In this document: piece after piece, positions 3,135 through 45,036 of the stretch
Numbering within the stretch: the first letter of the stretch is position 1
Layout of the letters: every line of letters begins with the position of its first letter
Assembly: GCA_023212725.1 (NCBI GenBank)
Contig: JALBYF010000010.1
Coordinates: 248,001 to 312,000, forward strand
From: Tranzscheliella williamsii
Lineage: Eukaryota; Basidiomycota; Ustilaginomycetes; Ustilaginales; Ustilaginaceae
Direction: 5' to 3'
Length of the DNA stretch: 64,000 nucleotides
Position numbers and translations under genes: made by a program
Notes under the pieces: generated by a model
The model's input: only the letters and a program-made list of their open reading frames with translations
The model's database searches: none
What the model was told of the DNA's origin: nothing

Positions 3135-6763
<3,629 letters not shown>

Positions 6764-23704: not shown

Positions 23705-26014
23705 TTATACATATCGCTCCTCGAGAACAATGCCTTCCTGCTCGAGGCCGAGGCGGATGGGGTCGCAGATGTCCTTGGTGTAGGGGGCGAGGATGCCAGG
23801 TTTGGTAAGCGCCGGGTGGCCCTCGAGGATGAGGCGGGTGGCAATGGCGCAGGGGACGCCGACGAGTTTGGCCATGGACGAGGTGCCGTGCGGGATGCCG
23901 TAGTCGAGCAGGGTGGAGGTGAGCGTCTTGTGCTCGCCGGCGGCGGTCTCGATTTCGAACTTGTGCTGGAGCATGACCATGTCGCGCTCGCCGGGGGCGT
24001 AGGCGCACTTGCTCTCGAGCGTGGCGCAGAGCGAGTCGAGCGGGTTGCCCGCCACCTTGTCCGCCTCCTGTGCCGCAGTGCCGCGCACCGTCACCGGCGT
24101 CTGTGTCGAGAAGAGCCCGATCCACCGCAGACCGCGCAAGATCGTCTCCTCCTCCTGCGCCGAGCTGAAGTCCACCTTGGCTTTGATCGCAGCGATCAGG
24201 TCCCGCTCGGCCGTGGACGAGGCACCCACCATCTTGGCGGTCACTTCGGCCCACGACACCTGCGAGCCGTAGGCAATGAAATCCTTGGCCTCCTCGTCCA
24301 GGAAGCCCAGCTTGACGAGCGCAAGAATAAACTCGGGGAAGCCCTGGTATCGGAGCGTGCCACGGATCACCGTCTCAGCCTCGGGGATGTTGTACCACTC
24401 CTTGAACGGAGTAGAGTCGCGGTTGGGGTAGGCGACAAAGGCAAAGGCAGGGTTGATGTAGAAGCTCTTGGCCGCCGCCATGAGCTCAGGGCCCGAGACG
24501 GTATGCTGCTTGCCGTCCTGCCAGAACTTGGCGGTGTTTCGCAGCGCCAAGAGGACGCCTCGCGAGGACCAGGAGAACTTGTAGCCGAGCGGGTTGTCGG
24601 CAGCCTCGGGGGCGGGCAAGCCTCCGCAGTAGGAGAGGAAAGACTTGATCTTTCCCCCTTCGGCGTGAACGTCGTCGATGGCCTTGACGGCGTACAGGTG
24701 GTCGAGACCGGGGTCGAGACCGATCTCGTTCATGACGGTGATGCCTGCCTTTTTGATCTCGGGCTCCAGGGCACGGATGGCGTCGGAGACGTACGAGGTG
24801 GTAACGACGTTGACCTTGTGCTCGCAGGCGGCCTTGATGACGGCGGCATGGTAGATGTATGGGATGAGCGAGATAACGACATCGTTGCCCTTGATAATGC
24901 TGGAGAGGGCGGCGGGGTCGTTTACGTCGACAGAGGAGGCCGTGGCGTTGTGCAGACCCTGGATCAACCGCTGGGCGTGCTCGATCTTGACCGAGGCGAC
25001 CGTCAGGCTGTACTCTGGGAAGCGATTGACGTATTCGGCAAACGGCTTGGCGACGTAGCCGGAGCCGAGAAGAAGAATCTTTTTAGGGTCGCGCTTGGGC
25101 TGGTTGGGACCATCCCCGGTCGCGATGACACGGCCTGGAGCAGGCGCTCCGTCCTCGATCACCTTTCGAGCGAACTCGGGGACGGTGAAAGAGGCTGTGT
25201 GCACCTGCGAGTTGTAGTACCTGCAATTGGGCACTTCTCGGAGGGGCTGTCGAACGTTTCGGTCGGCATCGAGAGAGCAGACAACAAAACCGATCTGGCC
25301 AGAGGGGTAGGTGGGGATGGTGGTGTAGGCGTAGTCGGCGACGGGGAAGAGCTCCTTGGTGGATCGTCGGAGCTCACCAATCAGGCCGAGATGAATCCAG
25401 ACACACTCGGCCTGGGTGGAGATGTGTCCTCCGGGCTTGAGCGCCTCCTTTAGAAGGGCAAAGTAGGGCTGCTGGAAGAGGACCTCAGCGGGCCCAACGG
25501 GGTCGGAAGAGTCAGTGATAATGACGTCGAAGCTGGCCTTGTTCTTGGGGTCTTTGAGAAAGGCGAAGCCGTCGCCGATGATGACCTTGGACTTGGGATG
25601 AGTGAGACCCTGGGCCATGTTGGGCAGATACTGCTTGGAGACACGGGGGACAGCCTCGTCAATGTCGCAAAGAATGGCCTCCTTAACGGTGTCGTGCTTG
25701 ACGACCTCGCGAAGGACACCGCCGTCACCACCGCCAATCACAAGCACGCGCTCGGGGTTAGGGTGCGAGGCGAGCGGAAGGTGGGTGATCATCTCCTGGT
25801 AGGCAAACTCATCTCGCTCGGTGCACTGGATGACGCCATCGAGGACGAGGACATTGCCAAAGGTGGTCGACTCAAAGACGAGGACGTCCTGGTAGAGAGA
25901 CTTCTCGTGATGGAGAATGCGCTGCACCTGGAGGGTCATAGCCTGGCCGGGCCACTGCGGGTTGGCCTCGTGAAACCAACCATCTCGGATGTTGGGGTGA
26001 GTGATGACGCCCAT
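23705..26014 (-). CDS. SPE3-LYS9: Spermidine synthase-saccharopine dehydrogenase fusion
   Basis: Single exon, 769 aa. Residues about 1-290 are a spermidine synthase: an N-terminal beta region ([17 protein letters not shown]), the aminopropyltransferase core [15 protein letters not shown], and [12 protein letters not shown]. It transfers the aminopropyl group of decarboxylated AdoMet to putrescine. From about residue 315 a second enzyme begins with a Rossmann loop ([17 protein letters not shown]) and continues as saccharopine dehydrogenase (L-glutamate-forming). This joins aminoadipate semialdehyde and glutamate in fungal lysine synthesis ([42 protein letters not shown]). The two are continuous with no stop or intron, matching the chimeric gene known in basidiomycetes such as Cryptococcus. 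Cytosolic. Polyamine and lysine synthesis are thus co-expressed from one locus. Confidence 0.96.
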
Positions 26015-34938: not shown

Positions 34939-36633
34939 TCAGCAACCCTGGAGCTTGTTCTTGGGCCAAGTGTACGTCTCGCGTGGAAACGAGGTGAGGT
35001 TTTGGTTCTGGTAGAGTTGCGGATGCGTATTGATAAAGTCGGAGGTCGGGTGGTCGGCCGGATCGCAAGAGAGCCGATCCGTCTGCCCGTCCTTCTGGTA
35101 GACGCGGACATAGTCGATAGCCATGGAAGCGGGGAACCTGATGCCGCCTGTGCCAAAGTTGACCGGCTGGAAGCTGCTCGAAATGGCGAGGTTCATAACG
35201 ATTGCCATGGGCTCTACAGGGATAATGCGTTGGCCAATGTCGAGATCGGGCCGCGGCGGGAATGCCTTCGGGTTCACGGTCCACGAAGGCTTGCCATCCA
35301 CATACCACGTCATCGAACCACTACCATCATAGTTGAAGTCTGGTGTGTATTCGACACCATAGATAACGTAGTCGTTATCCGTCAGATTGAAGCCACGATC
35401 GGGTACCTGCGTCACCGCAGAGACAGCCTCCTGAATCTGCCCGCCAGTATAGGAGTTGAACTCGGTGATATCAGAGTCGTATATCGTGGCGTCTGCCGTA
35501 GTGTTTCCCCAGCTATAGGCATCGTCGAAGGGCGCCACCTGGAGCGATTGAGAGGCGTAGGAATGAGTCTCGCCATGCTTGGTCTGCACCTGCACTTCGA
35601 AAATGTCGATCTCGGGAGCTGAACGACCGACATTGACGTTGGGTCCGGGATGGTCTTCGCCGGAACAGGTGCATGCCGAATATCTCATGCCAGGGAGATA
35701 GGACAATTCACCGCCGTAGGCATATACACCTTTGGAATTTAGGGCGAGATCAGGACCGCTACCGTTGACGTAGGTCTGGTTGGGTAGAATGCCAGTGTCG
35801 CACGACTGATACGAGTAGGGCCAAGTTCCTTCGGTGGAAGCAAGGTAGCCCGGCCTACCCAGATTGCCCATAAGCCAAACGGCGGGCCAGAATCCGCTCG
35901 AGCTGGGCGAACCTGGCAGCTTGACGTTAAACTCAATGTAACCTCCCTGGAAGCAAAACTTGTTCCAGGACTGGATCATGCCGGAACGGAAATTTTTGTT
36001 GTGCAATTCATGCTCCTCAAAAGAGATGACCATCGCACCGTTGGTGGTGTTGACCGCCTCGGGCGAGTACCACTCGTAATCGCCAGTACCCGAATACCAA
36101 AGATCGACAGCAGTCCAGAAGGGGTCGTCTCCAGGCCAGAAGGTCCTACCTTCGACATTGAACTCGTCGCTGAATACGAGATGGTAGGAGGACTTATCGG
36201 AGCCACTGGTCCAAGTTTGGGCGTCCGGAGGTGTGTCTGTGTCTATCAGGTTGGCGAGCGGGAGTTCGGGTACCTGGCCACTACCGTTGGTACCGCCGAG
36301 GCCAAAGGCGCCCTTGGTGCTATTGTCGTACATATTGCGGACCTTGACCAGGACGGGATAGCCGAGGAAGAGCATGAGCAGCGAGAGCGCGAGCAGAGTG
36401 AGGGTGAGAATATTGAGAAAGCCTCGCACACTCCATGCATGGGAAGAGGAGTCCCACTTGGTGTCGATCTGATGAAGGTAGTCATCCTCGTCATCGGTCA
36501 AGGTGGAGGGTGCTAGCTGATAGCGCGTGGTGTTTGGACCATCGGTTTGGGGTGCCAAGAGGTGCTCATTGTGGCCGGATGAGCCCCCGCTAGAAGCAGG
36601 GCTAGCATAGCCTGCGGCCTGATGCAAGGGCAT
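34939..36633 (-). CDS. KRE6/SKN1-type GH16 membrane protein, paralogue 1
   Basis: 564 aa from the ATG at 36633-36631. The cytoplasmic N-terminus is acidic (TLTDDEDDYLHQ), a single transmembrane helix spans about 71-95 (LNILTLTLLALSLLMLFLGY), and the lumenal SKN1/KRE6 domain follows. The GH16 catalytic signature is intact as EIDIFE (E341, D343, E346). Many aromatic residues line the predicted cleft (FWPGDDPFWTAVDLWY). Kre6/Skn1 proteins are type II ER/Golgi membrane proteins needed for beta-1,6-glucan in the cell wall. The open frame upstream to 36954 is probably leader. It ends in KNKLQGC, like paralogue 3, so those two are the closer pair. It is divergent from paralogue 2. Confidence 0.93.
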   Translation of the reverse strand: MPLHQAAGYASPASSGGSSGHNEHLLAPQTDGPNTTRYQLAPSTLTDDEDDYLHQIDTKWDSSSHAWSVRGFLNILTLTLLALSLLMLFLGYPVLVKVRNMYDNSTKGAFGLGGTNGSGQVPELPLANLIDTDTPPDAQTWTSGSDKSSYHLVFSDEFNVEGRTFWPGDDPFWTAVDLWYSGTGDYEWYSPEAVNTTNGAMVISFEEHELHNKNFRSGMIQSWNKFCFQGGYIEFNVKLPGSPSSSGFWPAVWLMGNLGRPGYLASTEGTWPYSYQSCDTGILPNQTYVNGSGPDLALNSKGVYAYGGELSYLPGMRYSACTCSGEDHPGPNVNVGRSAPEIDIFEVQVQTKHGETHSYASQSLQVAPFDDAYSWGNTTADATIYDSDITEFNSYTGGQIQEAVSAVTQVPDRGFNLTDNDYVIYGVEYTPDFNYDGSGSMTWYVDGKPSWTVNPKAFPPRPDLDIGQRIIPVEPMAIVMNLAISSSFQPVNFGTGGIRFPASMAIDYVRVYQKDGQTDRLSCDPADHPTSDFINTHPQLYQNQNLTSFPRETYTWPKNKLQGC

Positions 36634-39166
36634 AATTCCACCCAGATGAGCGCAAGCGGACGTTTGACTAGGATCTGGCGAGTGCCAGCGTCCGGCGGAC
36701 GAGGGTAGGCGACAAAGCAGGCAATGGAAGTGCGGAACGTGGAAGATGAAAGACCAGTGTCGAGGAGAGATGCCAAGAAGCAGACAGTAGAGTAAGGGAA
36801 AAAGAGATGGTGCAAGGTAAAGGAGGCAAGTGTTGTGGCAGATAAGTACAAAAGAATGGCCGAGAGGAAGAACAAGATAAGGGGAAGCGTCTTCGTCCAA
36901 CCTCGAAGCTGTCACCGCGAAATCCGCGGCAGGGGCGTAGCCGCCGGCATCCAAGGCAGCCAGCTAAGCGTGGTAAATAATAATACCTACAAAAAGGATT
37001 TTCAACGGCGTTCACAATGTCGGAACTAAGCAGACAAGCTAAAATCATATTGCGGACGAGTGGGTAACGCAGCATGCGGTGCCAGTACAAGTACGTACTG
37101 ATTCGGTGCCTGTCTCTAATGTGTTGTGCATACTAGTACGGGCAACGGCACATGAGTACACATACATGCCGCACGTATACATCGTGAATGCAAGTCGAGA
37201 GCATGTGGATAATTTTAGTTAAGCTAGAGTGCAGGAGAATCACAAATGCATTAGGAAGGCACAGCCCGGGGCTTTTTTGAAAGCCAGAGGCTAAAGCACT
37301 TGGTGCAACCATGTAGGGCAGCCAAGCCACGACGGATTGGTCCAGCCTTGTACACCACCGTACTTGGGCGATTCATTTCGCAGATAGGAGTACTAGGTGT
37401 CTGGCCATCGTTCCAAGGATGTAACCGCATGGGGGAAGAAGGGCTGCATGGACGACGGAGCCTTGTGCGAACCTGCGGCAGCGAGAGCGGCGGCTTTGGC
37501 AGAAATGGACAGACAGCCTTGCAAGCAGAAAAGGGGCAATAAATAGGGACAATTCACACCAAACAACGCGTGATGAATCTGAAAAGAAATCTAAGAGCTG
37601 GACAAATCACGCATGAGGACGCTTGATTATCGACTTTGATCTTCCGTATTCATTTTGCAGGTGATGGTGTGTTAGTACGTCAGCCGCAGGTGACCATCTG
37701 CAGCTTCTAAGAATAGGCACGGTGGAATATCGGCCGATACTCTTGGGCCTGCTCGCAACACTATTTTACGGTTTTGGGGTTCGGCGAACGATGGGCGGAG
37801 TCGAAGTCGGGTTTGAAATGAAAGGGGGGGCATCCGAACCATTTGCGTCATCGTCTGGAACGACAGCTGAAATGATAGCAGCCTGACCCCTCTTTCATAC
37901 AGAATCATCATCTCCCAGCTCTTCGTTTGCCTCGCAAGTCCAGATCGCGCAATGACACATGTCCACTCGTGACTTCTGGTTGCCCCGTCACGTACGGAGA
38001 TCAACTTTCTGCTTCGATCTGGGCGGGGTGGAGACATGACAGGGTCAACGGATACTGGCCACTCAAGGGCCGCTGGAGCGGATCCGAGGTCTGCATACAA
38101 AATGCATTTTGCGGCCACGAGATGATCCGTACTGGGAGTACCAGTGTGAGTGTGAGTGCCAAGGACCGGTCATCGTTGCAGGACTACTCTTCTCCAGATC
38201 GCCGGCTGCTTGACGTCGCCAAACTCGCCTCAGGCTGAGCGAGCGAACGACGTCAATGGAATTTTACCTTAATTCTGAACCAGCGTCCGCATCTGAACTT
38301 GCACCACTTTCCCCGCCCCAGTATGCCTGCATGCGATTACAAGCCACTGCCAACTGCGCACTGGTCGACAGCCTCGAATTGCCTTTCAGCGGTTTCCCAT
38401 TCAGTCGAATGCCCTCAATCGATGTTCGGTTGTTGCAATTCGAGACTGCAACGATACGCCCGGATGCTGCTAGCGGATGCTGCTACTTGCTGCAGCTAAC
38501 TGCTGCTGCTGCTTGTTTGACAGTCGAACCTATACTGCGAGTCTTCTTATTGCGCCGCTCAACTTGCTCGCATGGACGGCTAGTTGTCCTCGATCTTTGA
38601 TACTTCCGTTCTGCATCCAGTGCCCTCGCTCGAGCATTCAGGATTGTCTCTCTTTCGACGCCGTCACGTCAGTCGCCGCCTCCGCCTCTTTCGGGCCTCT
38701 ATGATTCAAGTCACTTGTCTGCTCATCCTCCCATCGGCATGCAGTGGACTTGGGATGGAGCTCGGCTCCTTGCTTTCCCAGCGTCTACCCCTCAACCTTT
38801 CTCTTTGTTGCAGCCTCCCCACATCGTTGTTTGACAGAATTTCTTCGCATCGCCTTCTTGACCAGCATCCTGCCTCTTGGCCAACATAACCCATCCCTAC
38901 CTGTCACTCTCAACAACCCCTTCGACAGCTGAGACGATTTTCCTTTTATCTTAGACATACGGCTTGGCAACGCTAGAAAGCGTCTGGGCCGGCCGAGCGA
39001 CAAGCCTCATCAGCGAGGCAGATCACTACTCAGCAGGGCATACATCCGGATCCCCATGCCTTTGCGGCCCAGCCCTAGGGCCTAGACACCACTATACTCG
39101 CCCTTGGACCGTTTCTAGCCTTTGATCAGGCTGATAGGATTGTAGGATCACAGCACTGCCAGCATT
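36634..39166. other. Divergent promoter, KRE6-like 1 / 2
   Basis: 2.5 kb without a convincing gene. It is C/T-rich over about 38,560-38,940, consistent with a long leader for paralogue 2. There are short repeats of GTAC/TACGTA type near 37,090-37,190. Confidence 0.45.
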
Positions 39167-40939
39167 ATGCCCGAACCCAAAACCACTGCGCGCGATAATG
39201 TTTCCACTTGTTCCGCCGTCTCGTCACAGATCTCGCCCACAGGCTCGACACTCTCGTCTGCTAACTCGCCCTATCTCGGCTCAGAGAAGCTGTCCGGGTC
39301 TCAGCCGGGCCTGCCTTTCAACGACTTTGTCATAGAGAACGATGAGCTGCACGACTACGAAAAACAAGGTCCTGTTAAGCGTCGCATGGATGCGCGTGTC
39401 TTCCTGGACCTCACCACCCTTTGCATCGTCATTGCTGCCGTCATAATGCTCTTCCTCGGCTATCCTCTCGTCCAGTTTGCTGGCCGCCGCAGCAACAACA
39501 AAGGCGGCTTCAGTGTTGGTGGCACCAATGCAACCGGCCAGATCCCCAACGTGCAACACATGCGATTCTCCTTGATCGATCCCGATACGCCTTCCGATCT
39601 CCGCAAGATCAAAAGCGTCGATGGCTCGCGGGACATGCAGCTCGTCTTCAGCGATGAGTTTAACGTTGACGGCAGATCCTTCTACCCCGGCGACGATCCC
39701 TTTTGGACCGCCGTCGACCTTTGGCCCTGGCCCACCGGCGACTACGAATGGTACAGCCCAGCCGCCGTCACCACCCAAGACGGCAGCCTGGTTATCACTG
39801 CGGATGAGGTCGAGACCAACAACCTCAACTTCCGTAGCGGACAGCTCACTTCGTGGAATCAGTTCTGCTTTACTGGCGGCTACATTGAAGCGCGCGTTCA
39901 ATTACCTGGTAGCTCACGCGTATCCGGTTGGTGGCCGGCCATCTGGACCATGGGCAATCTTGGCCGAGCCAACTACGGCGCCACCACCCAGGGCACATGG
40001 CCCTATGCCTATAGCACCTGCGACATTGGCACGCTGCGCAACCAGACTGACGCCGATGGACTGGGCCCTGCCGCTGCCCTCACCAGCGGCGATACGGTCT
40101 TCAACAGTAAGTACCACACCACCTCTATCAGCTGGCAGCCCGGCCAACGTCTCTCGGCGTGCACCTGCCCTGGCGATGACCATCCGGGTCCCAAGGACTC
40201 CAACGGCGATTTTGTCGGCCGATCCGCGCCGGAAATCGACATCATTGAGGCCCAGGTGCAGGGCGGTGTGGGTGGTGTCTCGCAGTCGGGCCAGTGGATG
40301 CCTGCCAACTACGGTTACCAGCTGATCAATACTACGGGCACCGAGTACGAGTTCTTCCAGAACTCAGCGCAGCTGAACGAATACCAGGGCAATGTCCTAC
40401 AGCAGTCGGCAAGTGGCGTCACCGACACGCTCCAGACAGCGTACCAGCACAGCGGAGGCGACTACTCGGTCTATGGCTTTGAGTACCAGCCGGGCTACGA
40501 CGGCTACATCCACTGGATCTCGGATGGCCGTCGATCCTGGTCGCTCTACTCGGGAGCTCTGGCCGCGGATCCTCGCGTCGGCATCGACCGCCGGCCTGTG
40601 CCGCAGGAACCCATGTACATTCTGCTCAACCTTGCGCTCTCGTCGGGCTTTGGCGAGATGGAGTGGGACAAGCTGGAGTTCCCGGGCAAGATGTTGATCG
40701 ACTACATTCGCGTTTATCAACCGGAAGGCGAGGAGAATGTGGGCTGCGACCCGGACGACTTCCCCACCGCAGCCTACATCGACCGCCACATGGAGGCCTA
40801 CACCAACCCGAACCTGACCGTCTGGGGCGGCACCCCCGAGCAGGGCGGCTATCAGCAAGACTGGCCGCGCAATCGACTCTATCCCGACGGCTGCACCAAT
40901 CCGCCATCCAAGTTCCCTGGCCCGAACCCGGCTGCCTAG
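39167..40939 (+). CDS. KRE6/SKN1-type GH16 membrane protein, paralogue 2
   Basis: 590 aa, single exon. The N-terminus is Ser/Thr-rich, a transmembrane helix spans about 79-103 (LTTLCIVIAAVIMLFLGYPL), and the SKN1/KRE6 GH16 domain follows. The catalytic signature EIDIIE is intact (E356, D358, E361). It is the most divergent of the three: the region after the catalytic motif differs (GGVGGVSQSGQWMPANYGYQ), and the C-terminus is extended (ending NPPSKFPGPNPAA) in place of the LQGC end shared by paralogues 1 and 3. Expected role: beta-1,6-glucan assembly in the secretory pathway. It converges on ROT1. Confidence 0.92.
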   Translation: MPEPKTTARDNVSTCSAVSSQISPTGSTLSSANSPYLGSEKLSGSQPGLPFNDFVIENDELHDYEKQGPVKRRMDARVFLDLTTLCIVIAAVIMLFLGYPLVQFAGRRSNNKGGFSVGGTNATGQIPNVQHMRFSLIDPDTPSDLRKIKSVDGSRDMQLVFSDEFNVDGRSFYPGDDPFWTAVDLWPWPTGDYEWYSPAAVTTQDGSLVITADEVETNNLNFRSGQLTSWNQFCFTGGYIEARVQLPGSSRVSGWWPAIWTMGNLGRANYGATTQGTWPYAYSTCDIGTLRNQTDADGLGPAAALTSGDTVFNSKYHTTSISWQPGQRLSACTCPGDDHPGPKDSNGDFVGRSAPEIDIIEAQVQGGVGGVSQSGQWMPANYGYQLINTTGTEYEFFQNSAQLNEYQGNVLQQSASGVTDTLQTAYQHSGGDYSVYGFEYQPGYDGYIHWISDGRRSWSLYSGALAADPRVGIDRRPVPQEPMYILLNLALSSGFGEMEWDKLEFPGKMLIDYIRVYQPEGEENVGCDPDDFPTAAYIDRHMEAYTNPNLTVWGGTPEQGGYQQDWPRNRLYPDGCTNPPSKFPGPNPAA

Positions 40940-41222
40940 CCGCAGCGGCACCTCCTTCGTGGCCGCACCCTGCTTTCCCACTTGCTTGCTCTTGGCTCTC
41001 TTGCTGCCTTGTCCTAGTAGACGACGGCCTCCGGACGCATCGCCGGGGCCGTCCAAAATGGCTCCTCTCTGCGGAACATACGGACACAGATACCTCTTCT
41101 GTTGCTATTTCAGGCGCTAGATTCGTGCGCTGATTTAGGCGCGGGCGCGGGCGCGGTAATTGTGTTATTCTGTTGTTGCAAGAGGCATAGTCCGGAAAAG
41201 GTGAAAGAGGAGGGGGAGCGGG

Positions 41223-42015
41223 CTAGGGGATGCCGATGTACTCGAGGTAGAGGCGGTCGGTGGGGAGCATCATGGGGGGGTCGTAGATCTTCCAGAGGAA
41301 GGGGGACTGGTTACCCCAGGCGTCGGTGAGGCGGAGCGCCGCGCCGGGGACGTTGTGGTGGAGGTCGAGCCAGGTGTCGACGGTGGTGTACTGTTCGAAG
41401 ACGTCGTACATTTCCTCGGGCGGATTTTTGTCGCAGGAGGAGCTGAGCAGCTGGGCGCCCTCGCGCGGGACGGGGAAGAGTGAGAGTGTTCCGTTGGGGC
41501 TGAGCGTGTACTGACCGTGCTGCCAGACCAGCTGCGACTGGATGCATTCTGGCTTGCGTGCTGTGCAGAGATCGACACCCGCACCAACAAGCACCGCCGA
41601 TGTCAGCATGGCGCCGCTGCCTCGGCTCAGCAGTTTTACTTACGGTTGGGCGTAACGCGGTACTTGGCAAACTCCCAGTATCCGTCCGACGTGAAGCTGT
41701 ACGCCATCCCCGGCGCGCGCGGTGGCGTGAAGCTGCGCCTGCGCGGATCGAAGAAGCCCTGCAGAAACACCGAAAGCGTCAGCCACCCCGCCTCACTCCC
41801 CACCACCTCCACTGCCAACTCACCGTCCCCGTAGACACAACACCCGACCCGCTCGACCAGGTACCCTGCAGCATCGCTTCATTGCCAGAACGTAGAATGT
41901 TGTAGCGCTGCCGGCTCGCCACCACCAACCCCACCTCGAAAGCTAGCACCGCCGCCAGCGCCACAACCAACAACCTCCCCACCCGGCTCGCCGCTGTTGC
42001 TGCTATTGTCGTCAT
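41223..42015 (-). CDS. ROT1: ER chaperone ROT1, 3 exons
   Basis: Exons 42015-41824, 41758-41644 and 41560-41223 join in phase (donors GTGAGT and GTAAGT; acceptors TGCAG and CACAG) to give 214 aa. After a hydrophobic N-terminal signal/anchor (about residues 14-33), the ROT1 hallmarks follow in order: MLQGTWSSGSG (about 48), PPRAPGMAYSFTSDGYWEFA, then CIQSQLVWQHGQYTLSPNG. In yeast Rot1 is an essential ER membrane chaperone required for normal beta-1,6-glucan and for glycoproteins including Kre6. Here it lies between KRE6-like paralogues 2 and 3 and is divergent from paralogue 3. It is slightly shorter than the yeast protein, with no strong C-terminal membrane segment visible. Confidence 0.92.
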
Positions 42016-43281
42016 ACCGTACAGATGCAGCCGTGCAAAGTTGCGGCCGCTGATGTGCTCAGTGACAAGGCGCGTTTGCTCACACTTGGAGGCGGCCTTG
42101 CAACGTGTTTGGCGAAGAAGAGCGCTGCCTGTCGACTGGTAGATGGGAGCGACGGCCAGGGTCTAGATAGTTAGTGAGATATGGTACGGAGAGGTACTGA
42201 GTTTAGAGACGAGCGGGAGGCTACAAGGAGCACCGGTGGAGCGGGCGGGGCGGCGGTTTCATGATGAGATGTGAATAGTGACGCATTGAACAAGGCCACG
42301 CAGGGCGAACGGCAGTTGTGTCTAGCAGCTGAGCGATGCTGCCCTGCGACGTGGGCGCGGCGAACTGTTGCAGAAGGCTAGCTTCGCAGCGAAGGTTGGG
42401 GGCTGCGCAGGAGGGTCCCCAAGCTTCTTGGCAGAGACGCCCATTCTCCCACAAGCGTCGCCAACATCAAAGCATCCTATAGAAGTAGAGTATTGCCAGG
42501 CAGTAGAATAGTATCAGGCAGTGCTCCTGTCCAGTTCCGCTTACCCCTCAGCGCTGTGCCGCATTCACGTGTCGCAAAGTCAAACGCCAGTTGTACTCTT
42601 CAATACAACCCAGCAGGCGCGCCAAGCCTGCCAGTCTTGGCACGCCCACCCAGCCAACCCTTAGCTCACACACTCACACACAGCCTCCTTCCCATCCACC
42701 GGCCGAGCCACCCAGCCCAATAGCGTACGAGGTCATCAGCGGCCTCAGCGTCGAGTGTTTGAATTGGTGATGCGGCACAGGCTTCTTTTACCACTTGCAG
42801 TGCAGCCAAGGAAAGCGTAGCTTAGCATAGTCGTGACCGAACAGAGCCACAGCAGAAGGGCCGAGACTGTGGTTGGATGCTGGCAAGGACCCCTTTCGCT
42901 CTATGATCGACACGGCATCGGGCCCCTGGGCCTCTCTATCAGTCGGAGATTTGGTCAACATTCCCGCTGGCTGCTCATCCTGCTCTTGGCAACATGTACA
43001 CCCCTCCACGCAGAGTTCCCTTCCGCACAGGCAATTAACAAGACCCCCGTGGTCCCTTCGTTTCATGCCATCACCATCTTGCGCCTGTATCGCTTGCTCC
43101 CAACCACTTCTTCGTCGCCGGAAGCCTCTTCTTTCGCGACCACGACGCTGTCTTGCCCATCGCCTGTGGGCTCACCTTTGCCCCTTCCCCGACTCGTGCC
43201 CAAGAAGATCACCAGTGAAGCGCGGAAAACAGCTGGTGGTCCTGCCTGCGAAATCACCTTAAAGGTTGGAGGCTGTGGCAC
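42016..43281. other. Divergent promoter, ROT1 / KRE6-like 3
   Basis: 1.27 kb between starts facing away from each other. A long plus-strand frame (42833-43594) overlaps it and the start of paralogue 3, but has no motif. No TATA box identified. Confidence 0.45.
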
Positions 43282-45036
43282 ATGCCAGATCAATCCAAGA
43301 CAGCCTACCATAGGGCCGATAACGGTATGGCCACCTCGTCGCGCCCGTCCGTGCATACCGACTCGAGCGGGAGCACATCTTCCGCGAGGTATGTCACCAT
43401 GCCTCTCAACCCCGGCGCGAACGGCGGCAGGTCGGGAGCGGCCTACGGCGGCGCACCGGTTGGCGTTGCTGGCCGACCGAACAACGCGTCGGTTTGGGAC
43501 GAGGAGGAGGAGGATGACTATCTCTATACCGACAAGGGTCTGGACAAACATTCGGCCTCGTGTTTCAGCTCTCGCGGCATCCTCAACGTCCTGACCCTCG
43601 TGCTGCTCACTGCGTGCCTCCTCGGCCTTTTCCTTGGCTATCCGCTCGTCGCCGTGCTTAGCAAGGTGTTCACCTCGATCGACACGCATCCCAAGAGCGC
43701 CACGCGCCTCACACAGTTCACGCAGCGCGGTCTGATCGACCCAGACACGCCCCCGTCAGCCATGACCCGCAAGGCCCCCACCGACGGCACCGACTGGCAT
43801 CTCGTCTTCTCCGACGAATTTGAGACCGAAGGCCGCTCCTTCTACCCTGGTGATGACCCGTACTTCGAGGCAGTCGACCTTTGGTACTGGGGAACCGGGG
43901 ACTACGAATGGTACTCTCCCGAGGCCGTCAACACCACCGGTGGCGCGCTCGTCATCTCGGTCGAGGAGCGCGAAACCAACAACAAGAACTTCCGCTCCGG
44001 CATGGTCCAGACGTGGAACAAGGTTTGCTTTCAAGGTGCTTACTACGAGGTTTCGGCGCGGTTACCCGGCTCGCACGCCATCGCTGGGTTCTGGCCCGGT
44101 ATCTGGACGCAAGGTAACCTTGGCCGGCCCGGGTATGGCGCCACGAACGAGGGCATGTGGCCCTACTCGTACCAGGGCTGCGACACGGGAGCCTTGCCCA
44201 ATCAGACCTACGTCAACGGCACTGGCCCACCCAAGGCGCTAGACGCGCACGGCCTATTCTCGAGCGGATACAACAACGAACTCTCTTGGCTGCCGGGCAT
44301 GCGCTACTCGTCGTGCAACTGTCCTGGCACCGAGCATCCCGGTCCGAACCACGGCGTGGCGCGCTCAGCACCCGAACTCGACATCCTTGAGGCCAAAATC
44401 AACCTCCGCGGCGGCCACGGCGAGTCGTCACAGTCGCTCCAAATGGCGCCGTTCGACGTCGACTACTACTACGGCAACGACTCGGACGCCGGCGATATCC
44501 GCATCTGGGACAGCACCACCATACTTAACGACTACAAGGGCGGTGCGATTCAAGAGGCCATCTCGGCGCTCAGCCCCGTCCCCGACGTTGCCTACGAGCT
44601 GACGCCTGGCGGACGCTATGTCACCTTTGGCGTCGAGTACGAGCCCGACTGGAACGCCGACGGCTCCGGCTACTCGACCTGGTACATGGACGGCCAGCCT
44701 ACCTGGACCGTCTACGGCCAGGCCATGGGCCCCGTCCCCGAGCTCGACATCAGCCAGCGCATCGTCCCCACCGAACCCATGGGCATCATCCTCAACGTCG
44801 CCCTCTCCCAGTCCTTCCAGGTCCCCGACTTCGCCAACCTCGCTTTCCCCGCCCACATGGCCATCGACTACGTCCGCGTCTACCAGCGCAACGGCCGCCC
44901 CGACCGCGTCGGCTGTGACCCCCCCGACCACCCCACCTACGAGTACATCCAAAACAACAAAGACATCTATTGGGACCGCAACATCACCGAATACCCCCCG
45001 TCCAAGCGTCCCAAGAACCGCCTCCAGGGTTGCTAA
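43282..45036 (+). CDS. KRE6/SKN1-type GH16 membrane protein, paralogue 3
   Basis: 584 aa from the ATG at 43282; an in-frame ATG at 43327 is equally plausible. It has an acidic patch (DEEEEDDY) before a transmembrane helix at about 100-126 (LNVLTLVLLTACLLGLFLGY), then the SKN1/KRE6 GH16 domain. The catalytic motif is ELDILE (E365, D367, E370): Leu replaces Ile, but all acidic residues are kept. It shares with paralogue 1 long identical stretches (LPNQTYVNG, QSLQ-APFD, RPD-LSCDP/VGCDP layout) and the end KN(K/R)LQGC. Type II membrane protein of the secretory pathway, expected to act in beta-1,6-glucan synthesis. Confidence 0.93.
   Translation: MPDQSKTAYHRADNGMATSSRPSVHTDSSGSTSSARYVTMPLNPGANGGRSGAAYGGAPVGVAGRPNNASVWDEEEEDDYLYTDKGLDKHSASCFSSRGILNVLTLVLLTACLLGLFLGYPLVAVLSKVFTSIDTHPKSATRLTQFTQRGLIDPDTPPSAMTRKAPTDGTDWHLVFSDEFETEGRSFYPGDDPYFEAVDLWYWGTGDYEWYSPEAVNTTGGALVISVEERETNNKNFRSGMVQTWNKVCFQGAYYEVSARLPGSHAIAGFWPGIWTQGNLGRPGYGATNEGMWPYSYQGCDTGALPNQTYVNGTGPPKALDAHGLFSSGYNNELSWLPGMRYSSCNCPGTEHPGPNHGVARSAPELDILEAKINLRGGHGESSQSLQMAPFDVDYYYGNDSDAGDIRIWDSTTILNDYKGGAIQEAISALSPVPDVAYELTPGGRYVTFGVEYEPDWNADGSGYSTWYMDGQPTWTVYGQAMGPVPELDISQRIVPTEPMGIILNVALSQSFQVPDFANLAFPAHMAIDYVRVYQRNGRPDRVGCDPPDHPTYEYIQNNKDIYWDRNITEYPPSKRPKNRLQGC

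Follow-up and report, generated by a model that had tools for sequence, protein, structure and literature searches.

Gene Organization of the KRE6-ROT1 Locus

The window analyzed here is a stretch of 64,000 nucleotides from the smut fungus Tranzscheliella williamsii (GenBank assembly GCA_023212725.1, contig JALBYF010000010.1, here C2, positions 248001-312000), whose genome comprises 18.18 Mb in 135 contigs. Between window positions 34,939 and 45,036, three KRE6/SKN1-type genes of glycoside hydrolase family 16 (GH16) and one ROT1-family gene are found in the order K1 (-), K2 (+), R2 (-) and K3 (+) (Table 1). R2 and K3 stand head to head, about 1.27 kb apart, and this divergent pair, which has a counterpart elsewhere in the genome and probably arose with it when one ancestral pair was duplicated as a unit, is the main subject of this report. 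K2 and R2 are placed tail to tail with 283 bp between them.

An initial annotation, made from the sequence of the window, had described three KRE6/SKN1 genes with an intact ExDxxE motif and a single N-terminal segment, a ROT1-family gene between the second and the third, and the orientation - + - +. Each of these observations was confirmed. All three KRE6 proteins belong to the KRE6/SKN1 family by their PF03935 scores (Table 1; cut-off 30 bits), the GH16 motif reads EIDIFE in K1, EIDIIE in K2 and ELDILE in K3, and each protein has one hydrophobic N-terminal segment, which agrees, as far as hydropathy only can tell, with a type II layout. R2 scores 153.8 bits against PF10681 (cut-off 23.2), confirming its membership of the ROT1 family. 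Its three exons are separated by GT-AG introns, and the spliced model was matched over 86-96% of its length by P0001-P0006, proteins of other smuts. K3 is matched best by a protein from the smut Moesziomyces aphidis of the Ustilaginaceae (77% identity), and R2 likewise finds its best matches among smut proteins. For K1, the first ATG lies at 36,633, the codon at 36,954 being TTG.

Table 1. Coordinates of the genes, exons and spacers described in the text. Positions refer to the window unless another contig is named.
Feature	Position	Strand	Remarks
K1, KRE6/SKN1-type GH16	34939..36633	-	564 aa from first ATG, single open frame; PF03935 632 bits
K1-K2 divergent spacer	36634..39166		2,533 bp
K2, KRE6/SKN1-type GH16	39167..40939	+	590 aa, single open frame; PF03935 597 bits; groups with K79 and K73
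R2 exon 3, including stop codon	41223..41560	-	ROT1-family gene
R2 exon 2	41644..41758	-	ROT1-family gene
R2 exon 1	41824..42015	-	Start ATG at 42015; signal-peptide-like hydrophobic N-terminus
R2-K3 divergent spacer	42016..43281		1,266 bp; proposed shared promoter region
K3, KRE6/SKN1-type GH16	43282..45036	+	584 aa, single open frame; PF03935 591 bits; putative partner of R2; sister type is K108
K108-R108 spacer	C108, L016 6949-8549
GH32 (invertase-type) gene	C108, L016 2145-4484	+	Immediately downstream of K108
Decayed KRE6 3' part	C83, 126343-127101		Internal stops; nearest to K3 and K108 types
Spermidine synthase joined to saccharopine dehydrogenase	23705-26014	-	Single open frame
SNF1-like protein kinase	4298-6763	+	UBA and adenylate-sensor domains

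KRE6 and ROT1 Families in the Genome

At least eight KRE6 genes are present genome-wide, three in the window and the others on contigs C73, C79, C60, C46 and C108 (here K73, K79, K60, K46 and K108); C83 holds a decayed remnant (Table 1). In a KRE6 tree of 62 entries, comprising 54 of 120 listed homologues (2,550 lay over the threshold) and the eight own proteins, with K46 entered as 422 residues of its 702-residue model, the K3 and K108 types are sisters with support of 100/100 and are separate from the K1 and K2 types. K1, K2 and K3 are 43-55% identical to one another, and the nearest proteins of the same genome are K60 for K1 (60%) and K79 for K2 (53%). Pairwise identity alone puts K3 marginally nearer K1 (55%) than K108 (53%), whereas the tree, which contains orthologues, unites K3 and K108. 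As judged from this tree, K1, K2 and K3 are members of three old KRE6 subfamilies. A recent tandem expansion of KRE6, with the three window genes as its local product, was therefore rejected on the identities and the tree.

The T. williamsii proteins resemble Kre6/Skn1 of Saccharomyces cerevisiae in their PF03935 match, the one N-terminal membrane segment seen by hydropathy and the GH16 ExDxxE motif, but differ in their gene organization, with at least eight genes, three of them within 10 kb and two head to head with ROT1-family genes. Among solved structures, sequence search with KRE6 matched GH16 laminarinases and beta-1,3-glucanases. Two of the listed homologues combine KRE6 with other domains, permease domains in P0122 (Thecaphora frezii) and a bHLH domain in P0116 (Malassezia equina); perhaps both are gene-model fusions.

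Four ROT1-family genes were found, namely R2 on C2, R108 on C108, R126 on C126 and R13 on C13. R126 (189 bits) and R13 (185 bits) score higher against PF10681 than R108 (157 bits) and R2 (154 bits), so that R2 is neither the sole nor the most canonical Rot1 of this genome. In ROT1 trees built without any budding-yeast protein, R2 groups with R108, whereas R13 and the sequences from other fungi stand apart, and these trees do not place it as an orthologue, rather than a paralogue, of the chaperone Rot1. The initial annotation had treated the linked gene as encoding the yeast-type chaperone. Membership of the family stands, but since R2 is one of four and not the best family match, a yeast-type chaperone function is an assumption. 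R2 resembles S. cerevisiae Rot1 in a PF10681 match over the first three quarters, a signal-like N-terminus and a conserved core, but it covers model positions 1-157 of 209, whereas a Lasiodiplodia protein covers 1-209; it also differs from yeast Rot1 in having no C-terminal hydrophobic tail and in being one of four paralogues. For the ROT1 family, a sequence search with P0001, the orthologue from P. hubeiensis, matched no solved structure at E 1.

A Second KRE6-ROT1 Pair and Evidence for Joint Duplication

At a locus on C108 unlinked to the window, K108 (-) lies head to head with R108 (+), with 1.6 kb between them. R108 has five exons, and two introns are common to R2 and R108 at the same position and in the same phase, one before GF of the motif TG(T/P)GF (phase 0) and one in the proline after N/D (phase 1); R126 and R13 read as single open frames with no introns. 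The R2 and R108 types are sisters with support of 97/91 in a first ROT1 tree of 30 entries (26 of 32 listed homologues and the four own proteins) and of 99/95 in a second tree of 26 entries, from which P0008, P0015, P0016 and P0146 had been removed as partial or misframed. Forcing the groups R2+R126, R108+R126, R2+R13 and R108+R13 gave p-AU values of 0.024, 0.026, 0.006 and 0.004, respectively, in the approximately unbiased (AU) test, for groups chosen after the first tree was known. Agreement between the trees, the introns in common and the presence of a counterpart on C108 together make it probable that KRE6 and ROT1 were duplicated jointly, as one pair. K3 alone is the matched partner of R2, and the locus in the window reads better as one co-duplicated pair with two older KRE6 paralogues alongside. 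The second pair strengthens the case for KRE6-ROT1 linkage and lay beyond the view of the initial annotation.

Pairing is confined to these two loci in the regions searched: the 10 kb searched at R126 and the 10 kb at R13 gave no KRE6 match (E 1e-4), and 9-10 kb around each of K73, K79, K60, K46 and the C83 fragment gave no ROT1 match (E 0.05). When 80,470 bases of C2 around the window were compared with C108 (85,000 of 86,167 bases), nothing matched besides KRE6, ROT1 and open frames that overlap these genes, at the level of open frames of at least 60 codons and E 1e-6, which weaker matches would escape. A large segmental duplication was thus rejected for the present-day state, in which only KRE6 and ROT1 match between the two contigs.

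The K1-K2 spacer, in which, as in the window at large, no transfer RNA gene was found, shares 56 9-mers with the K108-R108 spacer where 36 were expected, and ten 11-mers against 2.2; 0 of 100 shuffles reached either count. One 15-base match supplies half of these 11-mers and all four 12-mers. Shuffles here and below were sampled from dinucleotide frequencies, which they keep only approximately.

Age of the Probable Duplication and Linkage in Related Smuts

Proteins of the K3, K108 and R108 types occur in Thecaphora frezii (Urocystidales), and those of the K3, R2 and R108 types in Pseudozyma flocculosa (Ustilaginales). Since types are common to both species, the duplication is probably older than the split between the two orders and would date to the early Ustilaginomycetes. 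In T. frezii, the longest contigs of the K108-type and R108-type proteins are both 1,274,479 bp, which means linkage at best and not adjacency.

Two records carry R2-type and K3-type proteins under consecutive locus tags. One is P. flocculosa, with PFL1_02155 (R2 type) and PFL1_02156 (K3 type), PFL1_02155 being only 45% identical to R2. The other is a 99,335 bp contig deposited as Cichorium endivia, with L1887_57367 (R2 type, P0009) and L1887_57366 (K3 type, P0033); this chicory-filed contig with smut-type ROT1 and KRE6 is probably contamination of a plant assembly. In M. aphidis, PaG_04556 (K1 type) and PaG_04559 (K3 type) are three tags apart, leaving space for two genes.

Contig sizes were compared for 16 R2-type entries, 10 of them placed by the first ROT1 tree and six (P0007, P0009, P0010, P0011, P0012 and P0014) by 59-79% identity alone. 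In 7/16, the longest contig equals in bp that of a K1-type or K3-type entry, the common sizes being 8,918, 9,511, 99,335, 1,024,930, 1,123,934, 1,215,177 and 1,490,436 bp. The two sizes below 10 kb mean real closeness, and those above 1 Mb mean the same contig only. The same check gave 0/8 for R108-type entries, some from the same species, and 0/8 for other ROT1 entries, a weak control drawn from other fungi or unnamed samples. Taken together, the tags (two records with consecutive numbers) and the contig sizes point indirectly to conserved R2-K3 adjacency, and they suggest that the linkage seen in the window is conserved in several smuts. According to the initial annotation, the adjacency would be chance if no close relative had ROT1 linked to the KRE6-like genes; judging by tags and contig sizes, some relatives do.

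Interpretation of the R2-K3 Pair and Alternative Explanations

Yeast offers the functional background. Kre6 folding involves Rot1, Keg1 and calnexin according to the discussion of one paper, which also describes the exact role of Kre6 in beta-1,6-glucan synthesis as still unknown (PMC6222916). Temperature-sensitive big1, keg1, kre5, kre9 and rot1 mutants are described as having wall phenotypes like those of the kre6 deletion (PMC8754110). For smuts, a review lists both Kre6 and Rot1 among the genes affected by mitogen-activated protein kinase (MAPK) PMM inactivation in Ustilago maydis (PMC7409079); because it gives no gene numbers, they cannot be assigned to the present genes. In Candida albicans, Rot1 is called essential for wall integrity in a paper whose main text does not mention Kre6 (PMC13117340). 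In the open-licence literature, from which most subscription journals are missing, no report of KRE6-ROT1 linkage was found, and the literature search returned no paper on UMAG_10940, the R108-type protein of U. maydis.

The explanation that we favor, with confidence about evenly balanced, is that R2-K3, and likewise K108-R108, each combine an enzyme of the Kre6 type with a soluble, Rot1-like folding partner dedicated to it, the divergent spacer driving both genes together. R2-K3 would then be the heart of the locus and would descend from a KRE6-ROT1 pair duplicated in early Ustilaginomycetes. From each pair would come a GH16 protein of the Kre6 type with type II membrane topology, along with a soluble Rot1-like protein of its own, which may act in the secretory pathway as a folding aid or an escort for its Kre6. 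The spacer would keep the two genes of a pair expressed together, and their joint duplication may have preserved the match between enzyme and partner, by analogy with yeast Kre6/Rot1. K1 and K2 would represent older KRE6 subfamilies beside the pair, K1 being apparently linked to it in several smuts. By comparison with yeast, the likely output would be beta-1,6-glucan and wall remodeling. The retention of the two genes side by side points to KRE6 and ROT1 working as a unit, short of proof.

The pair shares with the conserved divergent gene pairs of fungi a head-to-head, short-range arrangement that, by locus tags, is kept in relatives; it is unlike other such pairs in having apparently been duplicated as a unit and in bringing together an enzyme and a protein related to the factor that folds it in yeast.

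Several observations weigh against this explanation, and part of them would fit mere inherited neighbors, i.e., a chance KRE6-ROT1 adjacency followed by one joint duplication, with small divergent pairs rarely broken and no functional coupling. When 8 KRE6 and 4 ROT1 genes were placed at random 200,000 times among 6,883 genes (a figure taken from U. maydis as a stand-in), 0.9% of the draws gave at least one KRE6-ROT1 adjacency and 0.004% gave two or more. The genome has two; because both pairs look like the product of one duplication, the original event is more fairly judged by the 0.9%, so that a single chance adjacency is not very rare. The two KRE6-ROT1 spacers show no clear excess of shared promoter words over shuffles, with 29 shared 9-mers against 20 expected (reached by 6 of 100 shuffles), eight 10-mers against 5.5, two 11-mers against 1.0 and no 12-mers. 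Gene order in smuts is regarded as conserved, and linkage among close smuts is therefore weak evidence of selection. Adjacency in the relatives is itself read from tags and contig sizes rather than from the relatives' DNA, and 9/16 R2-type entries have no contig size in common with a K1-type or K3-type entry, which says little since the best 120 of 2,550 KRE6 matches were compared, each entry giving the longest contig of its cluster only. As to the age of the duplication, the R108 clade with Thecaphora and P. flocculosa has moderate support (94/89 and 93/87), and the entries listed include neither an R2-type protein from Thecaphora nor a K108-type one from P. flocculosa. Inherited neighborhood is nonetheless harder to reconcile with the persistence of the pair in both copies while nothing else matched in the stretches compared around them, and with the consecutive tags of P. 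flocculosa despite just 45% identity between its R2-type protein and R2. We consider it possible but doubtful.

A further difficulty for the favored explanation concerns the location of the ROT1 proteins. Yeast Rot1 has a C-terminal membrane anchor. R2 has none: like R108, R126 and R13, it stops soon after an (L/W)PT motif and shows no hydrophobic tail, the highest score over 19 residues being 0.13-0.26 in the four. Of the ROT1 entries that are of neither the R2 nor the R108 type, 7/8 have tail scores of 1.11-2.12, three of them (P0019, P0151 and P0152) above the membrane-segment threshold of 1.6 and four below it, and P0150 has no tail (0.05). An HDEL-like terminal signal was likewise absent from the C-termini of the four T. 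williamsii proteins. Without tail and HDEL-like end, residence in the endoplasmic reticulum (ER) is not certain, and the four proteins may be soluble in the ER or secreted. An alternative is that the linked ROT1 proteins are not anchored in the ER but act as secreted or wall proteins and share a stage of growth with the KRE6 beside them, i.e., co-regulation without chaperoning. The hydrophobic, signal-like start of R2, R108 and most of their relatives, none of which has a hydrophobic C-terminal tail, would suit such proteins, and a paper on rust effector candidates includes a protein described as ROT1 in a table (PMC10455828). Nevertheless, R126 and R13 are tailless too, so that the absence of a tail marks no new role, and the ROT1 family core is conserved. 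This alternative appears rather unlikely.

Least of all do we expect K1, K2, R2 and K3 to form one functional cluster, as the initial annotation proposed: the spacing of the K1-type and K3-type tags in M. aphidis and two contig sizes common to K1-, R2- and K3-type entries (8,918 and 1,123,934 bp) would fit it, but K1 and K2 fall into KRE6 subfamilies other than that of K3, no ROT1 turned up within the 10 kb searched at each of K60, K79, K73 and K46, and among the entries listed P. flocculosa has no K1-type or K2-type neighbor of PFL1_02155. Part of that proposal is strengthened, in that the linkage looks conserved and K3-R2 was apparently duplicated as a unit; the cluster of three paralogues with an embedded ROT1 is better taken as that pair with two older paralogues at its side.

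Of the other genes in the window (Table 1), the joined spermidine synthase and saccharopine dehydrogenase represents a fusion known from basidiomycetes.

Implications for Smut Cell-Wall Biology

Extending the explanation of R2-K3 and K108-R108 as enzyme-partner pairs, smuts might carry private enzyme-chaperone modules, with two Kre6-type enzymes, each with its own specific, anchor-free Rot1-like partner, co-duplicated with it; the soluble partner may even accompany the enzyme out of the ER to places where the wall is growing. This extension is tentative and doubtful on present evidence. A client gene kept beside a gene of its folding factor's family is, in our judgement, unusual outside metabolic clusters. 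If R2 serves K3 and R108 serves K108, the specificity between Rot1 and Kre6 would become directly testable, with the two pairs providing a natural swap experiment.

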